The notes under the pieces: generated by a model
The model's input: only the letters and a program-made list of their open reading frames with translations
The model's database searches: none
Told to the model about the DNA's origin: nothing
Source: Liquorilactobacillus hordei DSM 19519
Lineage (GTDB): Bacteria; Bacillota; Bacilli; Lactobacillales; Lactobacillaceae
Assembly (NCBI RefSeq): GCF_019443985.1
Contig: NZ_CP049303.1
Coordinates: 1,426,001-1,490,000, forward strand
DNA: 64,000 nucleotides
Reading direction: 5' to 3'
Program-made: the position numbers and the translations under genes
Shown: one piece after another, positions 6,338 through 9,950 of the stretch
Position numbering within the stretch: the stretch's first letter is position 1
Layout: each line of letters opens with the position of its first letter

Positions 6338-7723
6338 TTAATGATTATTATCTTTAACATTTTTTTTAAAGCTTTTTTCTCCAAATAATGAAATTCCCCA
6401 ACCACTCAAAAGACCAACCAGCATAAATGGTAAGAAATCCAATCCAATGCTGTAAAGTGGAATATTAGCTGTTGCCCACGAATTAATATTTGCAATAAAT
6501 GATAGCTTTGCAAAAATAGGTGGCAGGTTATGAATGAGATCAAGAATTGCAGGAATCATTGTTAAAATAATAGTTGAGCGATAAATAAACGAATTTCGTC
6601 CAATAAATGGTTTTAATATTCCCAGAATAATTAATGCAATCGCTAATGGATATAAGAAACTAAGGATTGGTGATGAATAAAGAATAATCTGTTCCAAGCC
6701 GAAGTTTGCAATACAAAAAGAAACAAGCGTTGACATGAGTAAAAAGCGATGATAACCAATTTTAGGGAAGCGGTGTCCCCAATCTTCTGAAAGAGAAGTA
6801 ATTAATCCGATTGCTGTTGTCAGACATGCTAACAGTGTCAAAGCTGCCAAAATAGCTGCACCGGCTAAACCTGTATAATGTTCCATAATAGTTGTAAAAG
6901 CACTACCACCATCGGCACTCATTTTAGTATAAGCCAAACTGGAGGCACCTAAAGCGATCAGAAAAATATATATTAAAGCTTCGAATCCCATGGTTAAAAT
7001 ACCGATTTTTGCAACTGAACGTGAACGTGCTTTTTCTTTATGTTGACCAAAAAGCTTTAAAGCTGCGACAATTGTTACCCCAAAACCAAGACCAGCAAGT
7101 GCATCCATTGTATTGTATCCTTGGAGGAAACCATTAATAAATGAACCTGTTCCTTTTCCAGTAGCTGGTAGTAATGCGACACTTCGTAAATCAGTTCCTT
7201 TCAGAAAGAAGGCAATAAAGAAAAGAATTGCTAGAAGTAAGACAAAAAGCGGATTAAGAATTTTTCCAACATTACGGGTGATTTTACCTTCATTAAAAGA
7301 AAGAATACAAACAGTGCCGAAAAAAAGGAAGGAAAAAATCAGCAATCCTATGTGAGTCCATGCTTTCGGGATGAACGGTTGAACTCCAATTGAGAATGTA
7401 ACTGTGGCGGTTCTTGGAGTTGCAATTAGCAATCCTAATGAAGCATGAGTCAGAATCAAGAAGGCAAGTGAGAATTTTTTCCCAGCTGGAAGTGCTAAAT
7501 CATACATACTGTTACTCTCAGTCATACTGATTGCCAAAATAGATAGAAGCGGTAAGCAGATTGCAGAGAGCAAAAAGCCGATTGCAGCAGGTTCCCAATT
7601 TTGACCTGACATCTGACCTAGATGAATTGGAAATATTAAATTGCCGGCACCAAAGAACATCCCGAATAATAATGATGCTAAAATAATATATTGCTTGTTT
7701 GATAATTTTTCTGAATTATCCAT
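6338..7723 (-). CDS. brnQ: Branched-chain amino acid transporter
   Basis: 461 aa, about 12 hydrophobic segments and no signal peptide. It is an LIVCS-family carrier that takes up leucine, isoleucine and valine with sodium or protons. The N-terminus (GMFFGAGNLIFPIHLGQMSG) is the characteristic BrnQ motif. AGGAGG precedes the ATG by 7 nt. The leader upstream is broken: its T-box riboswitch lies at 9572-9834, on the far side of an IS1182 element inserted at 7776-9571. Only about 50 nt of original leader remain before the gene. Expression must therefore come from elsewhere, for example from the IS end, and control by uncharged tRNA is probably lost. Confidence 0.95.
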   Translation of the reverse strand: MDNSEKLSNKQYIILASLLFGMFFGAGNLIFPIHLGQMSGQNWEPAAIGFLLSAICLPLLSILAISMTESNSMYDLALPAGKKFSLAFLILTHASLGLLIATPRTATVTFSIGVQPFIPKAWTHIGLLIFSFLFFGTVCILSFNEGKITRNVGKILNPLFVLLLAILFFIAFFLKGTDLRSVALLPATGKGTGSFINGFLQGYNTMDALAGLGFGVTIVAALKLFGQHKEKARSRSVAKIGILTMGFEALIYIFLIALGASSLAYTKMSADGGSAFTTIMEHYTGLAGAAILAALTLLACLTTAIGLITSLSEDWGHRFPKIGYHRFLLMSTLVSFCIANFGLEQIILYSSPILSFLYPLAIALIILGILKPFIGRNSFIYRSTIILTMIPAILDLIHNLPPIFAKLSFIANINSWATANIPLYSIGLDFLPFMLVGLLSGWGISLFGEKSFKKNVKDNNH

Positions 7724-7803
7724 GTGTATTCCTCCTTAGAAACTATGTACTATGTGATTTTCTGATAGAAAAAAAGGGGCTGTGCCATAAGTCCCTAAGT
7801 GAA

Positions 7804-7846
7804 AGAGCTTCACCAGAGAAAGTAATGATTTTTCTGGTGAAGCTCT
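7804..7846 (+). terminator. Left-end hairpin of IS copy 1
   Basis: AGAGCTTCACCAGA (7804-7817) pairs perfectly with TCTGGTGAAGCTCT (7833-7846) and is followed by TTTT. It lies between the terminal repeat and the transposase start and can block read-through into the transposase gene. An extended -10 (TGG then TATAAT at 7852-7857), the likely transposase promoter, follows directly. The matching hairpin in copy 2 has two compensatory base-pair changes and one wobble, so the structure itself is conserved. Confidence 0.85.
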
Positions 7847-7927
7847 TTTGGTATAATTAAAAATAAAAAAGCACTGATTGCAGCCAGTGCCTTTAAAAAC
7901 AATCCCCTCATAGAAAGGATAATCAAA

Positions 7928-9619
7928 ATGTACAATAATTATAACATAAATCAGACTGTACTTAGTATTAAAACTGACTGGGAGCCAAAAGAAAATCATC
8001 CTGCACGGATGATTAATCAAATAGTTGAAGACCTTAAAATTAATGATCCTTACATCTTTGGACGACCACGTAAGTATGATCTGCGTGTACTTTTAAAATT
8101 AATTTTGTTTGCGTACACAAAAGGTATCTTTAGTAGTCGCCGTATTAATACGTTGGCAGAGGAGAATTTGGCAGCCCGTTGGCTGACACAAGAACAGGTT
8201 CCAGCCTACCGAACAATTTGTCGTTTTAGAATTTCAGATGAAGTTGAGAGCTTGATTAATCAATGTATTCTAAAACTAACCAAATATCTGAAACAAAACA
8301 ATTTTATTGATGAAGTTACTTTTATTGACGGGACTAAAATTTTAGCTGATGCCAATAAATATAGTTTTGTTTGGCGTAAGAATACGATTCGTTTTGACAA
8401 GCTTAATCGCTCTGCGATTATAACCCTTCTGGAAGAATTAAATGATGCTAAGTTTAAGTGTCAACTCCCAGCAGAGACAGATCTTACTTTAGAAATGCTT
8501 GATGAAATTACCTTGCGGTTAGAAAATGACTTGAAAGATTTGAATAAAAAGATTGAAAAAGAACATATCTCTCCAAACCCAGACAAGTCAAGGCGTCGAA
8601 AACTAAAATCTTTAAAACGAAAACTTAAGTTACGGCAAACTAAATTATTAGCTCATAAAATACAAACCAGAATTTATGGTAAAAGAAATAGTTATTCAAA
8701 AACAGATCATGATGCAACTTTCATGCGTGTTAAGGAAGATCCAATGCTCAACGGACAGCTAAAACCGGCTTATAATCTACAAATCGCCACAAGTAAACAA
8801 TTTGTAACTGCCTTCGGCATTTTTCAAAATCCAGGAGATACCAAAACATTAATTCCTTTTTTACAGCAACAAAAAGCAGCTGGAACTTTAGGTAAGTATA
8901 TTGTGGCTGATGCAGGATACGGTTCAGAATCAAATTATCGATATCTCGAAGATGAATTACCTGAACATACAGCGTTAATTCCATATGGGACAATGTTAAA
9001 AGAAAATAGTCGCAAATGGAAAAGTGATGACCGTAAGGTCATGAATTGGGCGTATCATCCTAAAGACGATTATTTTATTGATCTGCAGGGAGTTAGATTT
9101 AGTTTTTATGCTTACCGTAAGCGCAAAGATAAGTACGGATTTGTACGTGAATTTAAAGAGTATCAGGCAAACAAATACGATAACGATTTTAAAATTGATC
9201 ACCGAGCATTCACTAAAAACGGAAATCCTCGTAAAATAAGTATTAATAGCGCATGGGAGTATTTCAAAGCTAAGGAACGCAAGTTGCTTTCAAATCACCA
9301 AACTGGTTCAATTTACGGACAACGTAAAATAGATGTTGAATCAGTTTTTGGTGGATTGAAGGCTTGTTTGGGTTTTAAAAAATTTTCGGTTAGAGGTCTT
9401 GAGAAGGTAAAAAGGGAAGCTGGAATTGCCTTGATGGCAATGAATATTAGAAAATTGGTGGCGAAAGGCACCAATTATAACTGTTTTATAAACCAAAAGA
9501 AGAGATTAGTGAAAATCAAAGAACGATTTTCACTAATCTCTTCTATTTTGAAGGACTTATGGCACAGCCCCGTCTTCACGTGTTACCACCTTTATTTTCA
9601 CTCATTTCGCAATGATTGA
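7928..9619 (+). CDS. IS1182-family transposase (copy 1)
   Basis: 563 aa as read, of which 548 codons lie inside the element. The N-terminal DNA-binding half (IFGRPRKYDLRVLLKLILFAYTKG, then AARWLTQEQVPAYRTICRFR) is typical of the family. The DDE catalytic residues appear in FIDGTKILADANK (first Asp), VADAGYGSE (second Asp) and KIDVESVFGGLK (Glu). A basic, charged insert (about 190-240) separates the first two. The frame has no stop inside the element: it passes through the right terminal repeat as DLWHSP and stops 48 bp outside at 9617-9619. The ribosome binding site is AGAAAGGA. It is intact and probably active. Confidence 0.93.
   Translation: MYNNYNINQTVLSIKTDWEPKENHPARMINQIVEDLKINDPYIFGRPRKYDLRVLLKLILFAYTKGIFSSRRINTLAEENLAARWLTQEQVPAYRTICRFRISDEVESLINQCILKLTKYLKQNNFIDEVTFIDGTKILADANKYSFVWRKNTIRFDKLNRSAIITLLEELNDAKFKCQLPAETDLTLEMLDEITLRLENDLKDLNKKIEKEHISPNPDKSRRRKLKSLKRKLKLRQTKLLAHKIQTRIYGKRNSYSKTDHDATFMRVKEDPMLNGQLKPAYNLQIATSKQFVTAFGIFQNPGDTKTLIPFLQQQKAAGTLGKYIVADAGYGSESNYRYLEDELPEHTALIPYGTMLKENSRKWKSDDRKVMNWAYHPKDDYFIDLQGVRFSFYAYRKRKDKYGFVREFKEYQANKYDNDFKIDHRAFTKNGNPRKISINSAWEYFKAKERKLLSNHQTGSIYGQRKIDVESVFGGLKACLGFKKFSVRGLEKVKREAGIALMAMNIRKLVAKGTNYNCFINQKKRLVKIKERFSLISSILKDLWHSPVFTCYHLYFHSFRND
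9498..9544. repeat. Right-end 20-bp perfect hairpin within the transposase gene
   Basis: AGAAGAGATTAGTGAAAATC (9498-9517) pairs without mismatch with 9525-9544 around a 7-nt loop. It lies in the last transposase codons and is also present in copy 2, with one loop change. Read on the minus strand it would stop transcripts entering from the T-box leader. Confidence 0.85.
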
Positions 9620-9834
9620 CTCAAAAAGTACGGCTCGATTTTATTCAAGCGATACTCCATTGCTGTAATGGGCGCAATCCCAGTAACTACTACAATTAAA
9701 AATCATAGTTACAACTTGTAGCTTACTTTCATTTTCGTTCCAACTGCCTCGTTGCACCAGTAGGAGGCTCTCTTAAAATTATCCCGAAAATTACTCTTCT
9801 ACGCATCGTCTTTCGTGTATTCCGTTATCATTAG
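9572..9834 (-). ncRNA. T-box riboswitch leader, cut off from brnQ by IS1182
   Basis: On the minus strand the stretch ends with AAAGGTGGTAACACG (complement of 9580-9594), the T-box motif that binds the free tRNA 3' end. Upstream is a Stem I. ATTTTCG (complement of 9785-9791) pairs with CGAAAAT (complement of 9731-9737), and GTAG pairs with CTAC. Together they enclose a specifier loop with AGTA on one side and GAAAGTAAG on the other (complement of 9722-9730). The specifier codon is GTA (Val) or AGT (Ser), depending on register; valine would suit brnQ. The IS begins 8 nt after the T-box motif, so the terminator/antiterminator choice is destroyed. A poly-T tract survives on the brnQ side. Confidence 0.85.
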
Positions 9835-9839
9835 CTAGA

Positions 9840-9868
9840 AGTTTATAAAAATAATGCGAAGTTGTCAA
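9840..9868 (-). promoter_or_regulatory. Promoter of the T-box leader
   Basis: On the minus strand TTGACA (complement of 9863-9868) is followed after 17 bp by TAAACT (complement of 9840-9845). Transcription would begin near 9834, just before Stem I of the T-box, and now runs into the antisense strand of the transposase gene. Confidence 0.75.
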
Positions 9869-9950
9869 GTCTAGTTTTGTATTTTTTTAATTGTTAGCGC
9901 CTTTATTAAAAATGATATTGCTTCCAATTTATTTAAAAGAAAACAAGTAT

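Follow-up and report, generated by a model that had tools for sequence, protein, structure and literature searches.

In the window, the 64,000-nucleotide stretch of DNA analyzed here, an IS1182-family element separates the branched-chain amino acid carrier gene brnQ from its own T-box leader, and the terminator stem-loop found at this position in a relative is missing, as are other parts of the riboswitch. We consider it likely that insertion of a hairpin-targeting element led to loss of the terminator stem-loop and so uncoupled brnQ both from tRNA-Val and from the gene's own promoter. On the minus strand, the order is promoter, T-box leader, IS element, brnQ (Table 1). The original prediction, made from the sequence of the window, had already placed an IS1182 element between brnQ and a T-box leader that has a promoter of its own, and both features are borne out. 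What is new here is that the element stands in the place of the terminator stem-loop, leaving the U-tract alone on the gene side.

Table 1. Features of the brnQ locus (window coordinates).
Feature	Position	Strand	Basis or remark
brnQ, 461 aa, intact frame	6338..7723	-	TIGR00796, 304.1 bits vs 243.4; PF05525
Leader remnant: U-tract of lost terminator and brnQ ribosome site	7724..7775	-	corresponds to G012 leader downstream of stem-loop
IS1182-family element, in place of terminator stem-loop	7776..9571	+	inverted ends; 1,796 bp
IS left-end hairpin	7802..7848	+	inverted repeat I3, 20-nt arms
Terminator-like hairpin inside IS, facing brnQ	7867..7894	-	11 pairs, 4 G-C, U-rich tail
Transposase frame; final 16 codons and stop outside IS, in T-box sequence	7928..9619	+	NF033551
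TGTTATAAT, possible extended -10 toward brnQ	7938..7946	-	noticed by eye; absent from promoter scan list
IS right-end hairpin, terminator-like, facing leader transcript	9498..9544	-	20 pairs, then UUUUGG
T-box leader up to IS	9572..9833	-	RF00230; start estimated from promoter
T-box motif AAGGTGGTAACACG, 5' half of antiterminator	9579..9592	-	sequence; cmscan alignment
Specifier GUA (valine)	9724..9726	-	position after GAA+1 in specifier loop; register assigned manually
T-box promoter, TTGACA-17-TAAACT	9840..9868	-	10/12 consensus positions; identical in G012

The leader gives a minus-strand match to the T-box model RF00230 at 9815-9548 (E 5.7e-18). Its score of 81.2 bits, obtained on a 701-base stretch with an E-value threshold, lies below the gathering score of 93, at which an Rfam scan of the whole window returned no entry; the intact leader of the relative G012 also falls under this threshold (90.9 vs 93 bits). 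The last 24 nt of the match at brnQ are IS sequence, which cmscan aligned as the 3' side of the antiterminator. Matches to miRNA and similar Rfam entries over the IS hairpin in the 701-base scan were dismissed as chance. Stem I with the specifier loop and the UGGN T-box motif are present in the cmscan alignment (model positions 1-219), the motif as GGTGGTAACACG at 9590-9579. Between the end of this motif (9579) and the IS lie 7 nt (TGAAGAC); the predicted adjacency of the two therefore stands, at a spacing of 7 rather than 8 nt. On the brnQ side of the element, where a poly-T tract and about 50 nt had been predicted, 52 nt remain (7775-7724), with seven T and the ribosome site, followed by the brnQ ATG.

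Does this T-box belong to brnQ? Among the other genomes of the family, a T-box lies upstream of brnQ on the coding strand in 19 of the 20 loci scanned (L032-L051, with L048 as the exception; nine further fetched loci, L052-L060, were left out of the scan), and a chance match is excluded because of this recurrence. Judged by these loci, the T-box is brnQ's own, and its original assignment to this gene rather than to a different one holds. Leaders of this kind have been described in front of LIVCS/BrnQ carrier genes in lactobacilli (PMC2494555, available text), and the window likewise has a T-box upstream of a branched-chain amino acid carrier gene; unlike in those leaders, its terminator and the 3' half of its antiterminator are replaced by the IS. 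The valine specifier GUA was called by script in the window as well as at L033, L034 and L035, and by eye in L032, where the sequence equals that of the window. At more distant brnQ loci AUC (isoleucine) is the commonest specifier (eight calls by script and three by eye), with GUA in three T-boxes; the calls for brnQ T-boxes leave out L049 and L050.

The element is assigned to the IS1182 family by its transposase, which scores 306.6 bits with NF033551 (cut-off 270), and is delimited at 7776-9571 by the inverted ends GGGGCTGTGCCATAAGTCC. Its inverted terminal repeats have 24-nt arms that are 92% complementary, of which 19 nt lie within the IS. The right-end hairpin starts 27 nt into the IS; the region has seven terminator-like sites, against 1.4 expected. 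A full-length match to the element, at 92.8% identity, occurs in plasmids from Liquorilactobacillus hordei and L. nagelii. The element does not itself supply the stop codon of its transposase frame: in 18 of the 19 genomic rows, the frame continues past the right end of the IS to a stop 3 to 459 nt out in the flank, so that the C-terminal tail differs from copy to copy. In L017 the frame is broken earlier, and in L016 just the final 348 codons are open.

The closest BrnQ ortholog (92% amino acid identity) is that of G012, another species of the same genus, and an intact leader stands before brnQ there, with no IS upstream. This leader reads GGTGGTAACACGTGAAGAC, then the stem-loop GTCCTTAACTGTAAAAACAGTTAAGGGCG, then seven T. 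The window has the IS where these roughly 29 nt would be (with an ambiguity of one base), and seven T come after it. The 29 nt absent from the window fold, in the G012 sequence, as a stem-loop that none of 500 shuffles equaled in stability on either strand. One of its arms, ACGUCCUU, is the 5' arm of the terminator and also the 3' half of the antiterminator; because it is shared by both folds, the window lacks both states of the switch. The mutually exclusive antiterminator and terminator found in G012 are thus replaced by the IS in the window's brnQ leader, in agreement with the predicted breakage of the switch. The element appears to have replaced the terminator stem-loop and the antiterminator 3' half, beyond merely parting leader and gene. 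As read from its sequence, the T-box leader that is left is decapitated and no longer functional.

It is conceivable that the truncated T-box still functions, with AAGUCCUU of the IS (9556-9549) serving as the antiterminator 3' side, a role in which cmscan aligns this stretch, and the right-end hairpin serving as terminator. We regard this as extremely improbable, since the hairpin at 9544-9498 does not overlap AAGUCCUU, so that the two structures are not mutually exclusive, and since a second IS hairpin would keep such a switch from reaching brnQ. Because the right-end hairpin shares no sequence with the antiterminator, tRNA binding should not alter termination there.

Loss of a stem-loop at the point of insertion has precedent within the IS1182 family. 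According to the available text of PMC4923244, IS1272 and TnSha1 target hairpins, many of which are terminators, remove the stem-loop, and as a rule leave no target duplication. The window element resembles these Staphylococcus elements in its family, its hairpin target and the loss of the stem-loop (PMC4923244, same text). It differs in coming from Lactobacillaceae and in having one copy with a 23-bp duplication; also, two of its targets are riboswitch terminators, of which the available text of that report makes no mention. The hairpins discussed in the available part of PMC10655708 are ermC leader hairpins. We found no description of an IS inside a T-box in the open literature, including the part of PMC10969869 that was available.

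The other copies in the genome point to the same target habit. Nineteen near-full rows of the element reduce to 18 distinct copies, L016 and L017 (99.9% identical loci) being one site represented twice. The ends of the chromosome contig (C3: 1-6000 and 2209573-2215590) repeat each other, with 99.6% identity across the first 6 kb. The assembly thus probably contains a redundant end, about 30 kb long as estimated from the offset, and counts on this genome may include duplicates. Inverted flanks are expected of hairpin-replacing insertions because the foot of the stem is left on either side of the IS. Across 17 copies, the paired flanks indeed form inverted repeats averaging 3.9 nt, compared with 2.0 nt in mismatched pairs (0 of 20,000 permutations). 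This test leaves out L012 (left end out of range) and the duplicate L017; left and right flanks were swapped in six minus-strand copies, whose own palindrome score is unaffected. The inverted flank reaches at least 4 nt in 7 of the 17 copies and spans only 1-2 nt in the other 10, the brnQ copy (L001) included.

Comparison with G012 covered 13 copies and the window's own, with L006, L011, L012, L015 and L017 left out, and yielded a clean empty site for 4 of the 14: L001, L005, L007 and L010. In all four, G012 has a stem-loop exactly where the IS stands (24, 29, 34 and 48 nt), and replacement of a hairpin thus holds at 4 of 4 clean sites, one of the hairpins being weak. This is L005, where 4 and 29 of 500 shuffles were as stable on the two strands and the folded piece includes 3 retained nt. 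For the other 10, the comparison was ambiguous because of repetitive sequence (L009), the G012 match stopped short of the junction on one or both sides (L002, L013, L014 and L019), the G012 contigs end in IS ends, indicating a shared insertion (L016), or no G012 match was present among those listed (L003, L004, L008 and L018). L003 and L004 adjoin intact terminators. Direct repeats of at least 3 nt are absent from 16 of 17 copies; the remaining one, L018, has a 23-bp target duplication.

We infer that the stem-loop at brnQ was lost during the insertion itself, though the empty site comes from another species. A plain insertion combined with an unrelated earlier or later deletion, in which transposition did not remove the stem-loop, would draw on just this point, that the intact leader is known from a different species only, and on L018, by which the element is able to insert with target duplication. 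We judge such a sequence of events unlikely: all four clean empty sites carry a stem-loop at the exact position of the IS, and IS1272 and TnSha1 likewise remove the stem-loop (PMC4923244, available text).

One of these four sites is a second T-box locus. At L010:1150-3524 (C3 of the same genome, near 1864562), tandem Met T-boxes precede a cystathionine-synthase-like gene (63.0 and 62.5 bits, E 2.5e-11 and 3.4e-11, both below the gathering threshold). Both carry an AUG specifier in the same register as the brnQ leader, the second read by eye, which fits methionine. The IS copy occupies the position of the terminator in the first of them; the second T-box is retained with its own terminator. With two copies in T-box terminators, and the leader antisense to the transposase in both, the element might be thought to seek out T-boxes themselves instead of terminator hairpins. 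This reading is very unlikely, as about one T-box match is expected in 17 copies and two or more have p about 0.29 (hand calculation, resting on at least 31 T-boxes among some 500 terminators, scaled from 13 per 64 kb), so that two hits are about what chance would give a terminator-seeking element. The remaining insertion sites, moreover, are not T-boxes, and of 397 family genomes only this one matched the T-box-to-IS junction pattern, twice, with 0 of the 396 others doing so. In a wider contig collection, 19 stretches matched the pattern, where chance alone would give about 14 (hand calculation), none of the 19 Lactobacillaceae by title, records of this genome possibly being excluded. Both scans undercount, since they demand the exact end of the element and draft assemblies break at repeats.

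Based on these comparisons, we propose the following course of events. Ancestrally, a valine T-box would have governed brnQ, with uncharged tRNA-Val stabilizing the antiterminator and the terminator folding otherwise. An IS1182-family transposase, hairpin-targeting like that of IS1272, would then have joined the ends of the element at the foot of the terminator hairpin, with loss of the stem-loop of about 29 nt. The result would be a T-box without the antiterminator 3' half or terminator, followed by the IS, the old U-tract and brnQ. Leader transcripts would now reach the right-end hairpin of the IS, where stopping would not be decided by tRNA binding. Uncoupled from tRNA-Val and its own promoter, brnQ would probably be transcribed poorly, or weakly and constitutively.

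The original prediction also held that leader transcripts would form antisense RNA over the transposase gene and meet the right-end hairpin. The hairpin does lie in their path; it is reached (9544-9498) before most of the transposase gene, and for this reason a short leader RNA, presumably terminated there, is more probable than an antisense transcript covering the entire gene.

For brnQ, these sequence features suggest a loss of tRNA control, with expression that is probably weak and constitutive or nearly silent; the intact frame suggests that the gene may still be expressed. It is also possible, though doubtful, that an outward promoter in the left end of the IS drives brnQ, making uptake constitutive and independent of tRNA. 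The extended -10-like TGTTATAAT (7946-7938) faces brnQ, whose frame is intact and which is the sole BrnQ found in the genome. However, TGTTATAAT is absent from the promoter scan list, the terminator-like hairpin at 7894-7867 lies between it and brnQ, and downstream of this hairpin there is nothing promoter-like: between 7900 and the brnQ start, no site scored above shuffled sequence with self-written weights.

A BrnQ search of the genome found the window copy alone. Two KARI_N matches were considered as ilvC (26 and 24 bits against a cut-off of 20.6) and rejected, as they span positions 2-93 only; the frames read as a probable D-lactate dehydrogenase and phosphoglycerate dehydrogenase. With no true ketol-acid reductoisomerase found in the genome, we take ilvC to be absent. 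Given this and the single BrnQ, in a search that covered the BrnQ family of carriers, the cell is probably dependent on branched-chain amino acid uptake. The locus would then offer a natural experiment: an importer of amino acids that escapes tRNA control, in a bacterium probably auxotrophic for branched-chain amino acids.

Hairpin-deleting insertion, published narrowly for IS1272, is here tied to loss of riboswitch control, at two T-boxes in one genome, which predicts a stereotyped route of loss for terminator-type riboswitches. More speculatively, and in our estimation rather improbably, hairpin-replacing IS1182 elements could be a recurring cause of the loss of riboswitch control, with the short RNA of the orphan leader, which is antisense to the transposase gene at its 3' end, perhaps dampening the element. 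If so, each hit would turn a conditional terminator into a constitutive one, since the terminator is targeted and the IS brings its own leader-facing hairpin.

A hairpin-bearing intergenic repeat is also frequent in the genus (L142:320-430 in G012), with at least 54 matching pieces in the genome of the window. The left flanks of three IS copies, L002 (by search) and L006 and L011 (by eye), adjoin sequence similar to this repeat, and its hairpin may be a favored target of the element.
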